Source of the DNA: Actinoplanes cyaneus
Lineage (GTDB): Bacteria; Actinomycetota; Actinomycetes; Mycobacteriales; Micromonosporaceae
Direction of reading: 5' to 3'
Length of the DNA: 64,000 bases
Assembly: GCF_016862095.1 (NCBI RefSeq)
Contig: NZ_BOMH01000059.1
Coordinates: 62,001-126,000 of the forward strand
In this document: positions 1 through 61,660 of the stretch, piece after piece
How positions within the stretch are numbered: the first letter of the stretch is position 1
Layout of the letters: the number at the start of each line of letters is the position of its first letter
Notes under the pieces: model-generated
The model's input: the letters and a program-made list of their open reading frames with translations, nothing else
Databases searched by the model: none
Told to the model about the DNA's origin: nothing
Program-made: the position numbers and the translations under genes

Positions 1-596
1 CGGACCTGATCGCCGACCAGCCGACGTTCCTGATCGCCGGGCCGTCCCGCTCGGGGCGCAGCACCGCGCTCGCCGTGATGGCCGAGTCGCTGCTGCGCGG
101 CGGGACGGAGCTGGTCGTCGGCGCCCCGCTGCGCTCACCGTTGCGGGAGCTGGCCGGTCGCCCCGGCGTACGGGGAATCGTGACCGACGACAACCCGTCC
201 GCCGACACGCTCGCCGCGCTGGTGGATCCCGGCGCCGGACCGGTGGCCCTGCTGATCGACGACGCCGAGGGCTGGCGCGACTGCGCCGCCCGCGACTGGC
301 TGCGCCAGCTGATCCGGCAGGCGTCCGGGACGAACCGGGCCGTGATCATCGCCGGGGAGGTGTCCGCGGTGGCCGCCGGCTTCTCCGGGTGGCAGGTCGA
401 GGTGAAGAAGAACCGGCGTGGCGCGCTGCTCTCCCCGCCGGCGATGAGCGCCGGCGACCTGATCGGCGTCCGGTTGTCGCGGGCGAACCTCACCGAACGG
501 GTCGTGCCCGGCGTGGCCCGGGTGCACCTGGGGGACGGCACGCTGCGCACCGTCCAGATCCCTCTGCTGGAACCGACAGCGAAAGCGGTGATGTGA
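1..596 (+). CDS. eccC: Type VII secretion ATPase EccC, C-terminal part (5' truncated by window edge)
   Basis: The reading frame is open from the window start (first full codon at base 3) to TGA 594-596, about 198 codons. It begins with a Walker A-like segment (GPSRSGRST), preceded by FLIA, and about 65 residues later has a Walker B-like hydrophobic strand ending LLIDDAEGW. This is the pattern of the last FtsK/SpoIIIE ATPase domain of EccC, the motor of ESX/type VII secretion, which in the family binds the C-terminal tail of WXG100 substrates. The next gene overlaps its stop (ATG at 596) and is WXG100-like, and a mycosin-like gene lies 4 kb downstream, so the context agrees. The N-terminal membrane and first ATPase domains lie outside the window. 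Confidence 0.8.
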   Translation, partial: DLIADQPTFLIAGPSRSGRSTALAVMAESLLRGGTELVVGAPLRSPLRELAGRPGVRGIVTDDNPSADTLAALVDPGAGPVALLIDDAEGWRDCAARDWLRQLIRQASGTNRAVIIAGEVSAVAAGFSGWQVEVKKNRRGALLSPPAMSAGDLIGVRLSRANLTERVVPGVARVHLGDGTLRTVQIPLLEPTAKAVM

Positions 597-874
597 TGGC
601 CGACCTCGTGGTCAAGGACCTGGACGGGCTGGTCAGCGACCTGAACGAGCTGATCAGCCAGTTCGAGGACGCGCTCGACCTGCAGAACGACGAGAAGGGG
701 CAGTGGGGCCAGAACAACGCGAACCTGTCCATGGGTGACTTCGCGGACAACTGGACCGTGCACCGCAACAAGATGGTCGACGCGATGAAGAAGTTCCGCG
801 ACAAGGTCAAGGAGCTCGACGAGGCCTGGACCGAGGCGGAGAAGCAGTTGACCGACAGCATGGAGCAGAAGTGA
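596..874 (+). CDS. WXG100-like small helical protein (putative type VII substrate)
   Basis: A 92-residue, almost wholly helical acidic/basic protein starts at ATG 596 overlapping the eccC stop. It contains a Trp-Gly pair in a central turn (QWGQNN) and a second Trp in GDFADNW, between two amphipathic helices. That is the size and layout of WXG100 (EsxA/EsxB) helical hairpins. The C-terminal end (DEAWTEAEKQL) lacks an obvious YxxxD export signal, so export could depend on a partner. The next gene starts at GTG 871, inside the end of this gene, so the two are translationally coupled and may form a secreted pair. The family call rests on size, WxG and context. Confidence 0.65.
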   Translation: MADLVVKDLDGLVSDLNELISQFEDALDLQNDEKGQWGQNNANLSMGDFADNWTVHRNKMVDAMKKFRDKVKELDEAWTEAEKQLTDSMEQK

Positions 875-2603: not shown

Positions 2604-3232
2604 TCGATGTCGATTTGATCCTGCCCAGTGGCTGGGTGTACCTGCCCACCACGCCCGGCCTGGCCCGGCTGCGGAAGCGGACCATCGACGGGATCGTGCG
2701 CCAGGCGCTGCCCGACACGTTGCCGCGCGACAAGGCCGGCCCGTGGCGGCGGATGCTGCACGCCGAGCTCACCCAGGCCACCGACGAGGCCGAACGGCAG
2801 GGCGCCCGGGCCGTGGTCATGCCGACCACCGAGATGCACGGCATGCGCCTGCCCGGCACGCTGGTGCTGTCGATCATCGAGGACGACGGCGACATCCCGG
2901 ACCCGCGGCAGGTGCTCGACGGGCTCCTCGCCGACGCCGGCGCCGACGGGTCGGCCCTGGACATCGGCGGCTGCCCGGCAGTCCGGATCAGCCGGCTCGT
3001 CGACGCCGACAAGATCAAGCGCACTTCTCCCGCCGTACGCGTGAGCTACTACATCGCAGCGCCCGGCGCACCCGGCGTGTGGGGCCTGCTGACGTTCACC
3101 GTCCTCACCGACGGTGACGCCGACGCCGAACCGGTGCAGGCGATCGTCCTGCTCTTCGACATGGTCGTCAGCACCCTGCGCTGGTCCGACCGGGTCGACG
3201 TCCCGACCGAGGACGAGTTGCTCGCCCGATGA
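2600..3232 (+). CDS. Unknown type VII-locus protein (210 aa)
   Basis: GTG start at 2600 overlaps the previous stop by 4 bases. The 210-residue protein is soluble with no signal peptide. It starts with a strand-rich block (GWVYLPTTPG), a helical segment, then several predicted strands. The shape is similar to that of the upstream neighbour (both end in a long beta-rich half), which raises the possibility that the two are distant paralogues or partners. I do not recognise the family. It is probably a cytosolic component specific to this actinomycete type VII locus; the evidence is the unbroken operon. Confidence 0.6.
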   Translation: MIDVDLILPSGWVYLPTTPGLARLRKRTIDGIVRQALPDTLPRDKAGPWRRMLHAELTQATDEAERQGARAVVMPTTEMHGMRLPGTLVLSIIEDDGDIPDPRQVLDGLLADAGADGSALDIGGCPAVRISRLVDADKIKRTSPAVRVSYYIAAPGAPGVWGLLTFTVLTDGDADAEPVQAIVLLFDMVVSTLRWSDRVDVPTEDELLAR

Positions 3233-3243
3233 AAGGAAACCCC

Positions 3244-4878
3244 GTGTCCCGTACGCCGAGGCTGAGCCGCCCGGTGACGCTGGGCGCCCTGCTGGCGCTC
3301 GCCGCCGTGCTCGCCGGCGGAGGATTCGTGGCCCGGCAGGCAGCCGGCGCCGCGCAACCCCGGGCCGGCGCGCGGCTCTCCGCACCGGACGTGCGGATCG
3401 TCGTGAACGCGGCGTCGTCCTGCCCCGCGCTGACCCCCGCCCGGCTCGCCGGGCAGGTCATGGCCGCGTCGTACTTCGGTGACCAGCCGGTCCCGGAGAT
3501 GCGCACCGGCGGCCGTACCGGGGTGGCGGCGCTGACCGCCGACCAGTGGCAGCGCAACCAGCCCAGCCCGGAAGCCTCTCCCACCGACCGTGAGGCCGCG
3601 ATCACCGCGCTCGCCCACCTGATGTGCCGGCAGATCGGCCAGGCCCGCGCGGTCCGCTCCGGCGACGACCCGTGGCACCTGGCGCTCGCCGCCTATCAGG
3701 TCGGCATGGACCAGGTCGCCGCCGCGGGCCGCATCCCGGACGCCGCCGGCGACTACGTGCGGACCGTCGAGGGCTACGCCGCCTGGTATGCGGCACAACC
3801 CGCGCTGGCCACCGGCGGCGCGGCACCGTCCACCCCCGCGACGGGCGAGATCGTCGCCGTCCCGGACCAGGACGTGGCCGCGGTCGTCGCCGCGGGCAGC
3901 ATCTGCCCGGAGATGCCGCCGGCCCGGATCGCGGCGCAGATCATGGCGACGTCCGGATTCGACGCCGACCGGCTCGGCCCGGCCGGCGAGCAGGGCGTCG
4001 CCGGGTTCCTGCCCCAGGTGTGGACGGCGACCGTGAGCGGCGCCGCGCAGAAGTCGCCGTGGGACCCGGCCGTGGCCATCCCGGCGCTCGGCGCCACCAT
4101 GTGCAAGCTGGTGAAACAGGGTGGCGGGAAGTACGACGCCGCGCTCGCCGCGTTCACGTACGGCACCGGCGCCACGACCGCCACGCTGCTCGCCGCCGTG
4201 ACCCGGGCGCAGAGCGAGTACACGGCGGACACCCGCCTTGCCGGCAAGACCACCGGTCCGGTCGAGACGCTGCGGCCGGTCACCCCCACCTCGGCGGCAC
4301 CGGCCCGGACGGCGCCGGCTCAAGCAGCGCCGGCCCAGGCGGTCGACGACGACCAGCCGCCCCTCAAGGGCGCGGACGGTGGCTCGGGCGGCCCTTACGG
4401 CCCGTACTTCCTGCAGAACCTCACCACCCGCGACTGCATCGACCGGTCCCGGCACGACGCCATGGTCGACGGCGGCAGCGTGAACCAGTCCGCCTGCTCC
4501 GCGGCTGCCGGCTCCACCGAGCAGTGGACGTTCGAGCCGCGCGGGACCGACAAGAGGACCGACGACGAGCTCTACTGGATCCGGAACGTCTCGGACAAGC
4601 TCTGCGTCGACCCGCCCGGCGCCGGGACCTACCCGTCGAGCAGCGTGCTGAGCGAGACCGGCTGCGCCGAGGACGACAACCAGCTGTTCCGGCTGGAGAA
4701 GCGGCTCGTCGACGACGGCCGGCAGTACTACTGGCTGCACAACACGGCCACCGACATGTGCATCGACGTTCCCGGCGCGGGAAACGGCGGTGCCGGCGTA
4801 CGGCTGGCGCTCGTCCCGTGCATGGCCGGCGACGACCACGAATGGGCCCTCACCAAGAACCCGGAGTCCTCCCGATGA
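3244..4878 (+). CDS. Secreted tandem lytic-transglycosylase-like (catalytic Glu missing) protein with ricin-type lectin domain
   Basis: GTG 3244 is preceded by AAAGGA at good spacing; an in-frame ATG at 3229 overlapping the upstream stop is the alternative. A signal peptide or N-terminal anchor covers the first about 35 residues. Two repeated modules follow, starting SCPALTPARLAGQV and ICPEMPPARIAAQI, each followed by a GxxGVA.. segment and a Trp, then LAAY-like sequence. This order matches actinobacterial SLT/GH23 domains. The family has Glu in the E-S-G-F/W motif; here the aligned residues are Ala (codon 3466-3468) and Thr (codon 3949-3951). A Pro/Ala linker leads to a C-terminal ricin B-type domain of about 150 residues with QW/LF/EW repeats and paired Cys. 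Probably a wall-binding, non-catalytic component of the type VII locus. The loss of Glu is seen by eye alignment only. Confidence 0.65.
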   Translation: MSRTPRLSRPVTLGALLALAAVLAGGGFVARQAAGAAQPRAGARLSAPDVRIVVNAASSCPALTPARLAGQVMAASYFGDQPVPEMRTGGRTGVAALTADQWQRNQPSPEASPTDREAAITALAHLMCRQIGQARAVRSGDDPWHLALAAYQVGMDQVAAAGRIPDAAGDYVRTVEGYAAWYAAQPALATGGAAPSTPATGEIVAVPDQDVAAVVAAGSICPEMPPARIAAQIMATSGFDADRLGPAGEQGVAGFLPQVWTATVSGAAQKSPWDPAVAIPALGATMCKLVKQGGGKYDAALAAFTYGTGATTATLLAAVTRAQSEYTADTRLAGKTTGPVETLRPVTPTSAAPARTAPAQAAPAQAVDDDQPPLKGADGGSGGPYGPYFLQNLTTRDCIDRSRHDAMVDGGSVNQSACSAAAGSTEQWTFEPRGTDKRTDDELYWIRNVSDKLCVDPPGAGTYPSSSVLSETGCAEDDNQLFRLEKRLVDDGRQYYWLHNTATDMCIDVPGAGNGGAGVRLALVPCMAGDDHEWALTKNPESSR

Positions 4879-6200
4879 CGAACCGGACGACGGTCCGCAC
4901 GGCAACGGTCGCCGTCCTGGTGGCAGCGGTGACCGGCGTGAGCGCGGTGCCCGCCGCGGCCGCGACCAGCACCGAGGTGTCCTACACGGTCACCGGCGCC
5001 TACCAGGACAAACCCGAGAACCTCCGCGAGATCGCGGAACGCTTCCTCGGCGACGGCAACCGGGCCGGCGAGATCCTGCGCCTCAACGCCGGCCGCATCC
5101 AGTGGGACGACGAGCGGCTCACCGACGCGAGCCGGCTGCACGAGGGCTGGATCCTGCGCCTGCCGTGGGACGCCGCCGGCGCCGAACTGCGGTACGGCAA
5201 GATCCCGGAGGAGACCGCCGACTCGACCTGTGCCAAGCAGGCGGGCGCTGCCGCCCCGGCGGACCGGACACAACTCCGGCCGCCGCTGAGCGAGGCCTGG
5301 TCCCGGGCGGACGGCACGGGCATCACGGTCGCGATCCTCGGCTCCGGGGTGGACGGCGCGGCTCACGGGCTGGCCGGCCGGGTCACCCCGGGCGCCGACA
5401 TGGCCGCGGGCACCGGCCGTGGCGACCTGAGCTGCGAGGGCACGGCCACCACCCTGGCCGGGATCGTCGCCGGCGACCGCGAGCACTCCGGCATCGCGCC
5501 GCAGGCCCGGATCCTGCCGCTCAAGACCGGCGGCGACAACATCGTTTCCGGTACGGCGGTGAGAGCCATCGGCGTCGCCGCCGAGTCGGGCGCCCAGGTG
5601 CTGCTCATCGGTGGTCAGGTGGACGCCGACGACACGGCGGTGGTGACCGCGATCCGCGACGCGATCGCCCACGACGTGGTCGTCGTCGTGCCCGCGACCG
5701 TGCCGCTGGAACCGGTGGACGGCCTGCTCCTCGCCGGCGCGGACACCGGCACGCCGCCCGAGGTGGCGGCGCCCGGCGCGGCCGACCCCGCCGGAGACGG
5801 CGCGGGCATCGGAACCGACTACGCCGCGGCGTTCGTGGCGGGCACCGTCGCACTGGTCCGCTCCGCCCACCCCGGACTGCACGCCGCCGACGCCGCCCGG
5901 CAGGTGCGGGCCACGGCCGTCGACGGTGTCGTCAACCCGGCTGCGGCGGTGACCTCCGGGACACCCGCGAATGCGACCTGGACGACGCCGTCCAGCGGGC
6001 TCAGAACGCTGAGCACGGTGCTGATCTGGGCCGGAGCCGTACTGGCCGCGCTGGTCGTGCTGGCGTTCCTGCTGCCCGGCCCGGCGGGGGCGCTCAGCCG
6101 CCGCCTGGCACACCGGCGTGCGCTGGCGGCCCGGGCCAGGATGACCGGCGACAGCAACGACCCGTTCTGGCAGCCGCCGGACCCGGCCCGGATGGACTGA
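4875..6200 (+). CDS. LysM-mycosin (S8 subtilase fold) with all catalytic residues apparently lost
   Basis: 441 residues, ATG 4875 overlapping the upstream stop. Order: signal peptide (1-30), LysM-like domain (about 36-98, ending GWILRLPWD), subtilase domain (about 135-355), C-terminal TM helix (about 380-402) and short cytosolic tail. The fold matches mycosins (MycP), the membrane-anchored proteases of ESX systems. However, the Asp of the D-T-G motif is Gly156 (ILGSGVD), the His of the G-H-G-T motif is Thr190 (CEGTAT), the Ser of G-T-S is Asp315 (GTDYAA), and the oxyanion Asn region reads VVPAT. So it should be proteolytically inactive. MycP is known to stabilise the ESX membrane complex independently of proteolysis; this copy may keep only that role, with wall binding by LysM. 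A second, active mycosin could exist outside the window. Confidence 0.8.
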   Translation: MTNRTTVRTATVAVLVAAVTGVSAVPAAAATSTEVSYTVTGAYQDKPENLREIAERFLGDGNRAGEILRLNAGRIQWDDERLTDASRLHEGWILRLPWDAAGAELRYGKIPEETADSTCAKQAGAAAPADRTQLRPPLSEAWSRADGTGITVAILGSGVDGAAHGLAGRVTPGADMAAGTGRGDLSCEGTATTLAGIVAGDREHSGIAPQARILPLKTGGDNIVSGTAVRAIGVAAESGAQVLLIGGQVDADDTAVVTAIRDAIAHDVVVVVPATVPLEPVDGLLLAGADTGTPPEVAAPGAADPAGDGAGIGTDYAAAFVAGTVALVRSAHPGLHAADAARQVRATAVDGVVNPAAAVTSGTPANATWTTPSSGLRTLSTVLIWAGAVLAALVVLAFLLPGPAGALSRRLAHRRALAARARMTGDSNDPFWQPPDPARMD

Positions 6201-59689: not shown

Positions 59690-61660
59690 TCACCGGCGGC
59701 CGGGGACCGCGGAGAAGAACTTCTCGCCGGGCACGCCGACACCGGTCTCGGCGTCGTAGCCGGGCGTGCTGTGGATCGTGGTGGTCTGCACGTCCACCTG
59801 CCGCAGGATGTACGACAGTCCGCCGCTGGCGTCGATCCCGTTGACGAAGTTCGTGCGCGCCTCGTAAAGCGGCGTGCTCGGCGCCGTGACGTCGTGCAGC
59901 GCCGAAGTGCCCAGCTCACGGTAGTAGAGCGGGTTCACGAAGCCGAGCGGGTGCCGCGCCTTCTGGTTCGCGATGGCCTGCATGCCGGCGAGCAGCGGCG
60001 AGGCGAGGCTGGTGCCGCCGATCCGGTACTCGTCGTAGTGCACGCCGTCCGGGAACGTCTGGGTCTGGCCGACCCGGAAACCGGTGTTCGGGTCACCGGG
60101 CATCGAGATGTCCGGTGTGGTCCGCGCGGGCGTCGCCGAGAAGTACTTCGAGATCGACGACGGCACCTTCCCCCGCTGGTAGAACGGTTGCGGGAACAGG
60201 ATGCTGGTGCCGCCACCGCCACCGGAGGTGTACGCGGACGGGCCCCACGCGCCGTCGGTCAGTGTCTGGTAGGCGTTCTGCCAGCCGTGCTCCCAGACCC
60301 GGTTGCCCCGCTTGTCGATGCCGACGCTGGTGCCGCCGACCGCGGTCACGAACGGCAGGTCGGACGGGAAACTGACCGACTTCGACGGCAGGTCGGTGCC
60401 GCCCGAGGTCTGGTCGCCGGCGTCGCCGCTGGAGAAGTCGACGGTGATGCCGGTCAGCGCCGCCTTCAGCGAGAACAGCTGGTAGAACTTGACCGTCTCG
60501 GCGCCGAGCAGCTCCACGTCGTCGGTGCCCGAACCCCACGAGTTGGTGACGATGTCGGCCACGTGGTCGTCGATCGTCTGCGCCCACGCCTCGTCGAGAC
60601 CGGCGAGACAGTTCGGTGCGCCCACGTAGACGATCCGGGCGCCCGGGGCCATCGTGTGCACGGCCTCGATGTCCAGGGTCTCCTCGCCGTACCAGCCGCT
60701 CGCGTCACACAGCTCGGTGTCGGTGTACCCGTCGGCCGGCGGGGTGATCTGCGAGAACTGGCCCGGCTCGAGAGCCGGAAGACCATACTTGCGGCTGTAC
60801 GTCCGCACGTCCCGCGCGATCGTCGGGGACGCGTAGGCGTCGGTGACCGCGACCGTCACGCCGCGACCGTCGAGACCGCGCTTGAGCTGCTCCGTCACGC
60901 CGTACGCGCTCTGGTACTGCTTCGGGGTGTACCCGCAGACGACGTACGGCTTCTTCTTGCCGTCCGGCGCCGCCGGCAGCGTCGTCGCGACCTTCTCACC
61001 GTAGTACGACGAGCACGGCGTGCCCGCCCGGAACCCGTCGGACGGCGGCGGCAGCGTGTCGGCCGGCTTCTTCAGCAGCGAGCCCTGGTCGATGCCGACG
61101 ACCGCGTTGACCAGGCCGGTCACCACGGCCGGCGCGTCGGAGGGCAGGGACAGGTCGGTGCTGTTCGCCGTGACCGTCTTCCCCTCGTACGTGTACCGGC
61201 GCACCGTCGTGCCGAAGGTCTTGTCGATCTGCGCGACAGTGCCGGACGCCTCGACGTAGAGGCCGCCCGCGAGCGTGTCCCGCACCCGCAGGCCCTGCCC
61301 GGTGAGCCAGGAGGTCACCGACCTGACGTCGGCGGCCGAGGGGGCGTACGCCGCCGTGAACTGCGCGTTGTTCAGGTACTGCCCGTAGCTCGCGCTGTCC
61401 GGGTCGGACAGGGCCGCGAGCCGCGCCTCCGCGCCGGCCTGGTCACGCATGGTGAGCAGCAGGCCGAACTGGACGGTGCCGACGGGCGCCGGGGTGCCGG
61501 CGTCCTTGGCCTGGCCGATCCACCGTGGCTTGCTGCCGCCGAGGGTGTGCCGGCCGGGTCGCGACGCGCTGGCGGGCGTCGCGCCGAGGACCGAGACGAC
61601 TGCCGCGCCGAGGGCGACGACAGCAGTGACCCGGTACCTCAGCGTCGATGGGATCAACAT
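59690..61660 (-). CDS. Secreted S53 (sedolisin/kumamolisin) peptidase
   Basis: 656 residues with signal peptide (about 1-32). An N-terminal prodomain (about 50-200, with FTAAYAPSAADVRSVTSWL) is followed by the catalytic domain: GEETLDIEAVHTMAP (Glu and Asp), SSGDAGDQ (oxyanion Asp) and RIGGTSLASPLLAG (Ser). These match the Ser-Glu-Asp triad of S53, acid-active endopeptidases. Single gene. Confidence 0.93.
   Translation of the reverse strand: MLIPSTLRYRVTAVVALGAAVVSVLGATPASASRPGRHTLGGSKPRWIGQAKDAGTPAPVGTVQFGLLLTMRDQAGAEARLAALSDPDSASYGQYLNNAQFTAAYAPSAADVRSVTSWLTGQGLRVRDTLAGGLYVEASGTVAQIDKTFGTTVRRYTYEGKTVTANSTDLSLPSDAPAVVTGLVNAVVGIDQGSLLKKPADTLPPPSDGFRAGTPCSSYYGEKVATTLPAAPDGKKKPYVVCGYTPKQYQSAYGVTEQLKRGLDGRGVTVAVTDAYASPTIARDVRTYSRKYGLPALEPGQFSQITPPADGYTDTELCDASGWYGEETLDIEAVHTMAPGARIVYVGAPNCLAGLDEAWAQTIDDHVADIVTNSWGSGTDDVELLGAETVKFYQLFSLKAALTGITVDFSSGDAGDQTSGGTDLPSKSVSFPSDLPFVTAVGGTSVGIDKRGNRVWEHGWQNAYQTLTDGAWGPSAYTSGGGGGTSILFPQPFYQRGKVPSSISKYFSATPARTTPDISMPGDPNTGFRVGQTQTFPDGVHYDEYRIGGTSLASPLLAGMQAIANQKARHPLGFVNPLYYRELGTSALHDVTAPSTPLYEARTNFVNGIDASGGLSYILRQVDVQTTTIHSTPGYDAETGVGVPGEKFFSAVPGRR

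Follow-up and report, generated by a model that had tools for sequence, protein, structure and literature searches.

A conserved mycosin-like protein lacking the subtilase catalytic residues, and its lectin-domain neighbour, at a type VII-like locus of Actinoplanes cyaneus

The window analysed here, a stretch of 64,000 nucleotides from Actinoplanes cyaneus (contig NZ_BOMH01000059.1, positions 62,001 to 126,000), carries the greater part of an eight-gene type VII-like operon. MYC, the last gene of this operon (4875..6200; features are on the + strand unless stated otherwise), is an open frame from ATG to TGA for a mycosin-like protein of 441 amino acids in which the whole catalytic triad and the oxyanion asparagine are replaced. 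With the subtilase fold kept, the catalytic residues lost and the protein conserved as such, MYC would, judged from its sequence, be a subtilase pseudoprotease. It is encoded next to LEC, a protein with a lectin domain, and the reading that we favour, at a probability of about 0.6, is that the two form a non-proteolytic scaffold on the wall side of the membrane that is used by an EssC-like type VII system and yet is separable from it.

Loss of the catalytic residues in MYC

The subtilase-fold region of MYC spans residues 138-360 (5286..5954) and is recognised by PF00082 (E 1e-5, with a match in all 12 rows of an alignment of MYC proteins that includes the window) and by the mycosin model TIGR03921 (75.5 bits, E 4.1e-21, below the cut-off of 278.75 bits). 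The latter was the sole NCBIfam match at E up to 0.1; the CspC family model was not among the matches at this threshold. A profile of 12 MYC orthologues matched the solved structures 1dbi (E 4e-22), 4kg7 of MycP1 (E 4.5e-20) and 4hvl (E 6.2e-17). Alignment with MAFFT to an intact mycosin of the same genome puts Gly156 (codon 5340..5342) at the position of the catalytic aspartate, Thr190 (5442..5444) at that of the histidine and Asp315 (5817..5819) at that of the serine, and the oxyanion strand reads VVVVPAT, without its asparagine. The same residue register is seen in both of the printed alignments, to 1dbi and to 4kg7, from the independent profile search of solved structures. The agreement of the two methods bears out the preliminary description of this DNA, in which it had been proposed that the entire triad is replaced within otherwise intact subtilase motifs. 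The structure model of MYC was poor (mean pLDDT 50.9) and unfit for placing residues; the 50 matches listed when it was used with Foldseek were to subtilisin-type structures.

Orthologues were sought in 300 genomes of the family and in a named genome collection, giving 13 distinct proteins, the window's included. All are from Micromonosporaceae, those with names belonging to Actinoplanes, Paractinoplanes, Winogradskya, Mangrovihabitans and Micromonospora. The aspartate position is occupied by glycine in nine and alanine in four, the histidine position by threonine, serine, alanine or proline, and the serine position by glutamate in ten, aspartate in one and alanine in one, with a deletion in the remaining protein; the oxyanion asparagine is gone from all 13. 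Since none of the orthologues has any of the four residues, a frameshift or sequencing error in MYC, which had been named as a possible flaw, is disfavoured and the dead form would seem to be of long standing. An intact triad placed elsewhere in the protein had also been considered. In the 12-row alignment there is no invariant histidine or serine column, only Ser117 being nearly invariant, so a relocated conserved triad is ruled out. A sedolisin-like Ser-Glu-Asp site is likewise ruled out, the nucleophile position being without serine in all 13 orthologues.

The MYC frame is open in 13 of 13 orthologues, and the fold motifs together with Cys119 and Cys187 are kept at approximately 50% identity. 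The ratio of nonsynonymous to synonymous substitution rates (dN/dS), calculated by the Nei-Gojobori method with a purpose-written script, was below 1 for MYC in all five, partly overlapping, pairs compared (0.37, 0.36, 0.42, 0.45 and 0.59). Between P. toevensis and P. tereljensis the MYC value of 0.37 compares with 0.15 for the ATPase EssC, 0.22 for LEC and 0.23 for P2600, the gene preceding LEC; between the window and W. consettensis the values are 0.45 for MYC, 0.53 for LEC and 0.37 for P2600. MYC is maintained by purifying selection, under a constraint that is weaker than for the ATPase and similar to that on LEC.

Outside the subtilase region, MYC has a hydrophobic N-terminus that is likely to be a signal peptide (residues 1-29, 4875..4961; judged from the hydrophobicity of the sequence) and a likely C-terminal transmembrane (TM) helix (residues 375-399, 5997..6071), where a hydrophobic stretch coincides with a helix in the low-confidence model. 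Between the likely signal peptide and the subtilase region lies a LysM-like domain (residues 34-101, 4974..5177), defined by a profile, A7, and by weak Pfam LysM matches in relatives. Profile A7 locates the domain in all 99 sampled members of the class described below, a recovery that is partly by construction as the profile was built from 22 of the class members. Of 22 N-terminal segments, seven matched Pfam LysM (PF01476) at a threshold of E 1, the best with E 0.0016; the window's own copy did not match. Of the earlier suggestion that a LysM-like domain had been added at the N-terminus, the part that holds is that the domain appears to be a conserved unit, while its identification as LysM is weak.

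Pseudo-mycosins of the LysM-like class and of a second clade

MYC belongs to a larger class of mycosin-like proteins with this N-terminal domain, many of which are encoded in Micromonosporaceae. A census by similarity to the window's MYC, by which intact mycosins bearing a LysM domain could have been missed, comprised 165 subtilase-domain rows, namely 99 LysM-like, 41 intact and 25 further dead rows. From 140 candidate open reading frames (ORFs), ten near-identical copies had been merged and nine short rows (<350 amino acids) dropped, and nine rows without an aligned subtilase core were removed before the tree was built. The nucleophilic serine is absent from all 99 LysM-like members; the aspartate is retained in 82 and the histidine in 12, with Asp/Thr/x as the commonest catalytic state (39 of 99). 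None of the 41 rows with an intact Asp-His-Asn-Ser (D-H-N-S) set has the LysM-like domain. On a FastTree phylogeny of the subtilase domain the changes of state needed were two for the serine, four for the aspartate and four for the histidine, and the window clade forms one side of a branch with a local support of 99. By parsimony, the serine would have been lost first, with the aspartate lost as well, later, in the window clade.

Mycosins of the type found on contig C70 of the same genome served as controls. D-H-N-S is present in 30 of 30 such loci, the genome's own copy included (30 were read of 47 matches listed), and a match to this type was found in 40 of 40 genomes of the genus; a search for a second, intact mycosin, as proposed in the preliminary description, was thus answered within the same genome. 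Subtilases from outside the family gave D-H-N-S in 28 of 28 cases. In a search of 296 genomes of the phylum, scored over five candidates per genome, matches at E up to 1e-45 were obtained in 36. In two of these, the genome studied here and one other (G003), both from Micromonosporaceae, the match extends over the LysM-like part; in the other 34 the alignment starts after it. A match to the LysM-like segment only, of 40% over residues 37-100, was seen on a contig of a Planctomycetia metagenome-assembled genome (L075).

The 25 dead rows without a LysM-like domain consist of 16 proteins of a second type, named here after contig C7, and nine D-R-A proteins. In the D-R-A pseudo-mycosins the aspartate is kept, the histidine is changed to arginine and the serine to alanine; they are encoded beside LysM-like members, at loci L031, L033, L035, L042, L059, L077, L087, L105 and L129, and some of these loci encode two or three dead mycosins.

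In the C7 mycosin itself (L012:8978-10237), encoded at an EccB/EccD/EccC locus of this genome, the D, H, N and S positions are occupied by Ser, Thr, Asp and Ala. All four residues are missing from 16 of the 20 C7-type loci read, this one included, and the four intact loci are the most distant, at 41-44% identity. Of the 16 dead loci, 14 have an eccB gene within a flank of approximately 1.5 kb, against none of the four intact ones. The dead clade also takes in loci L166-L179, L184 and L185, with Ser or Ala at the D position, Thr, Ile, Val, Ser or Leu at H, Asp or Glu at N and Ala or Gly at S. It apparently arose independently of the LysM-like class and, of the two cases, offers the cleaner natural test of whether a mycosin can be purely structural.

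LEC, the EssC-like system and possible roles

LEC (3229..4878), the stop codon of which overlaps the start of MYC, comprises a hydrophobic helix at its N-terminus, a pair of degenerate SLT (lytic transglycosylase) repeats and a lectin domain of the ricin type. The repeats are homologous to each other (hhalign probability 99.7). PF01464 (SLT) matched 4 of 11 LEC orthologues, with a best E of 3.1e-5 and no match for the window's LEC, and a wider homologue scored above the PF01464 cut-off (E 3.7e-5). With the model of LEC (mean pLDDT 62.4) the lectin fold was found and the SLT part was not among the structure matches listed, so the SLT assignment draws on Pfam and on an ESGF/ESGL motif in relatives. 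Against solved structures, the best match of repeat 2 was non-significant, to a tape-measure protein (E 0.024). At the catalytic position, the glutamate of ESGF/ESGL, repeat 1 has glutamate in 18 of 57 LEC proteins, and enzymatic activity may persist in the LEC of some relatives. In the window clade the residue is alanine in repeat 1 of all 13 proteins, and threonine (12) or serine (one) in repeat 2; MYC and LEC of this clade are thus both without their catalytic residues.

LEC adjoins MYC in all 13 orthologous loci and is its steadiest neighbour. LEC repeats were present in 57 of 97 pseudo-mycosin loci against none of 79 control loci, counts to be read with the facts that some of the 97 loci share stretches of a contig and a few extend to 20 kb, while the controls cover approximately 1.5 kb on each side and count the genome's own C70 gene twice. 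Counted per gene with equal flanks of 1.5 kb (25 of 108 genes having <1 kb on one side), the repeats lie near 13 of 13 window-clade genes, 42 of 86 other LysM-like genes (55 of 99 for the class as a whole) and none of nine D-R-A genes. As the 16 dead C7-type loci among the controls are also without LEC, its presence follows that of the LysM-like domain rather than catalytic loss as such.

The operon order is WXG100, EssC/EccC-like ATPase, WXGb, P871, P2004, P2600, LEC and MYC, and this is kept in the nine loci, the window's included, that encode both EssC and MYC. The placing of MYC at a type VII locus in the preliminary description is well founded, an EssC/EccC-like ATPase and a WXG100 protein both being encoded in the operon. 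EccB and EccD were not found in the window, in 20 kb upstream of it or in the 12 other orthologous loci, as searched by tblastn with the genome's own EccB from C7 and EccD from C7 and C70; EccB matches in this genome are confined to contigs C7 and C36. The EccB and EccD of T7SSa were thus not found at the locus, and of the EccB, EccC and EccD encoded with a mycosin there is only the EssC/EccC-like ATPase, in 9 of 13 loci.

On the reading that we favour, MYC would be a conserved pseudoprotease derived from a mycosin and unable to cut by the subtilase mechanism. Its TM helix would probably anchor it at the outer membrane face, and its LysM-like domain would probably tie it to the wall. MYC and LEC together would make up a scaffold outside the cytoplasm, to which the subtilase fold would contribute a surface for docking proteins and in which wall glycans would be bound by the lectin and LysM-like domains. 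A docking scaffold is suggested by the pairing with LEC, by the presence of LysM-like and lectin domains and by the loss of catalytic residues in both partners. Where EssC lies near MYC, in 9 of 13 loci, the scaffold may work for the EssC-like type VII system, which would be docked or stabilised at the wall; elsewhere it may work for another envelope complex. More conservatively, MYC would have a binding function at the wall and the outer face of the membrane, with no proteolysis involved. A broader proposal, which we put forward tentatively and hold to be somewhat less probable than its contrary, is that the LysM-like pseudo-mycosins are a large Micromonosporaceae class in which the nucleophile was lost once, that with LEC, dead in this clade, they make a wall-docking module of two former enzymes for an EssC-type VII system without EccB and EccD, and that a second, independent loss took place at a complete EccB/C/D locus.

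Several observations weigh against the scaffold. In 4 of the 13 orthologous loci there is no EssC in approximately 10 kb upstream of MYC; these loci (L053, L054, L055 and L068) encode P2600, LEC and MYC alone, with P2600 and LEC fused in one ORF, and P871, the operon marker of a genus-wide search, was in none of the three of these four genomes that the search covered. Conversely, the EssC operon occurs without LEC and MYC in G076, G161 and G202 (20 kb fetched). Taken together, these loci indicate that MYC and LEC travel together and can part from EssC. The pairing itself weakens further out in the class, 44 of 99 LysM-like genes having no LEC repeat within 1.5 kb, and three such loci, 8.8-20 kb long, have none over that length either. 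At the eight other loci with EssC and MYC, identity to the window's proteins is 45-61% for MYC against 75-86% for EssC, and this faster evolution fits a sensor or a loosely held part equally well. To these may be added the weak LysM assignment and the poor MYC model.

The role that the preliminary description had proposed, a structural one in ESX stability, has a precedent in published work. In mycobacteria, MycP1 and MycP5 are needed for stability of the complex regardless of their ability to cut (PMC5082899; PMC5156307), the protease-dead forms still support secretion (PMC5082899), and trimers of MycP5 cap the EccB5 dome and stabilise ESX-5 (PMC8131196). MYC resembles MycP1 and MycP5 in its subtilase fold, its likely signal peptide and C-terminal TM helix and its WXG100/EccC-type locus, and differs in the natural loss of D, H, S and N, in a score far below the TIGR03921 cut-off and in a locus where EccB and EccD were not found. 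An oligomeric MYC could thus cap the EssC pore as MycP5 does EccB5, keeping the structural half of the mycosin's job. The homology to mycosins is in keeping with this, as is an operon that encodes both a WXG100 protein and an EssC/EccC-like ATPase, and the separate dead clade in the same genus, beside EccB in 14 of 16 loci, indicates that dead mycosins are tolerated at EccB loci. The published contact, however, is with EccB, the constant partner of MYC is LEC, and MYC with LEC occurs in four loci without EssC, as EssC does in three genomes without MYC. A cap is possible at the nine EssC loci but, since MYC and LEC exist without EssC, could not be the whole function, and overall we consider it unlikely.

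As a sensor or regulator, MYC would bind a ligand or peptide and exert control over an active partner, for instance the intact C70 mycosin. Such a role would follow the example of CspC of Clostridioides difficile, a studied bacterial subtilase pseudoprotease with Gly, Thr and Asp at the Ser, His and Asp positions (PMC6636752). These residues are close to the commonest Asp/Thr/x state of the LysM-like class. CspC and CspA share with MYC a subtilisin-like fold with replaced catalytic residues, and theirs is a non-proteolytic role; unlike MYC they have two changed catalytic residues rather than all, a prodomain and a jelly roll (PMC6636752), and they are soluble where MYC has a likely TM helix. 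A potential partner is widespread, the C70-type mycosin being matched throughout the genus with its triad intact in every locus read, but it is encoded at another locus, to which no link was found. As the catalytic positions vary within the MYC clade (Thr, Ser, Ala or Pro; Asp, Glu or Ala), a single ligand pocket kept by selection is not suggested, and we regard such a role as improbable. To our knowledge, CspC and CspA have neither a LysM-like domain nor a type VII locus. The proposal with the least to recommend it, and a very improbable one, is that MYC is a relic on its way to loss: its dN/dS between P. toevensis and P. tereljensis does exceed those of EssC, LEC and P2600, but all five pairs are below 1, in the pair of the window and W. 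consettensis MYC is below LEC, and the open frame, motifs and two cysteines have been kept throughout.

Type VII secretion in mycobacteria requires mycosins but can do without their protease activity, and structures point to a stabilising role there. Here mycosin-like proteins devoid of all catalytic residues have been retained across entire clades, at least twice on the tree, which provides systems outside the pathogens for studying the non-proteolytic function of mycosins alone and, in LEC, names a partner. Automatic names such as 'serine protease' would be misleading for the LysM-like and C7-type dead mycosin genes. In the available portion of a Micromonospora genome paper, several mycP genes are listed as S8/S53 peptidases with no comment on catalytic residues (PMC4182475). 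Neither naturally dead mycosins nor LysM mycosins were seen to be reported among the papers listed by searches of an open-access library, in which most subscription journals are missing.

Other operon genes and further loci

The end of the EssC/EccC-like ATPase gene lies at 1..596; the protein has 1460 amino acids and its gene begins 3,787 bases before the window (L009:16214), after the WXG100 gene. WXGb (593..874) encodes a helical protein of 93 amino acids with a WGQ motif and no WXG100 Pfam match, and P871 (871..2007) a helical protein of 378 amino acids with hydrophobic stretches and a weakly WXG100-like N-terminus. P2004 (2004..2603; 199 amino acids) and P2600 (2600..3232; 210 amino acids) are conserved proteins of unknown family, the latter being the one that forms a single ORF with LEC in four orthologous loci.

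FHA domains had been suspected at the N-terminus of EssC and were not supported. A match to the ubiquitin-like YukD was found there instead, all 11 members scoring at E up to 1 with a best E of 7.9e-6; the match of the member shown scored 16.1 bits against a cut-off of 27. A YukD-like part thus seems to be fused to the N-terminus of the ATPase. More usually this part is separate or on EccD, and in the domain scan of this genome's EccB/C/D locus it is on EccD.

In the survey of Garrett et al. 2024 (PMC11217815), systems T7SSa to T7SSj have an EccC/EssC-type ATPase and WXG100 proteins, as does the MYC operon, which differs in its pseudo-mycosin, its pseudo-transglycosylase lectin and the apparent YukD-ATPase fusion. 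The words 'Actinoplanes' and 'LysM' are absent from the main text of the survey. The trait of T7SSd is a TsdD kinase, TsdH and TsdI beside TsdC; no kinase domain was found in the operon proteins scanned, by domain scan only.

In the three EssC operons without LEC and MYC there is a divergent gene (L216:16109-17422, L217:3263-4654 and L218:3214-4563), the product of which combines a LysM-like domain with a hydrophobic helix and, at its C-terminus, a domain of unknown family. Elsewhere in the genome, contig C22 (L056) has an EccC-type ATPase locus with a partial EccD match and no TIGR03921 match on the contig, and C36 (L057) has an eccB gene near which no EccC-type or EccD match was found. Within the window, at 59690-61660 on the - strand, a protein of 656 amino acids matches a pro-kumamolisin activation domain and a subtilase-family peptidase.

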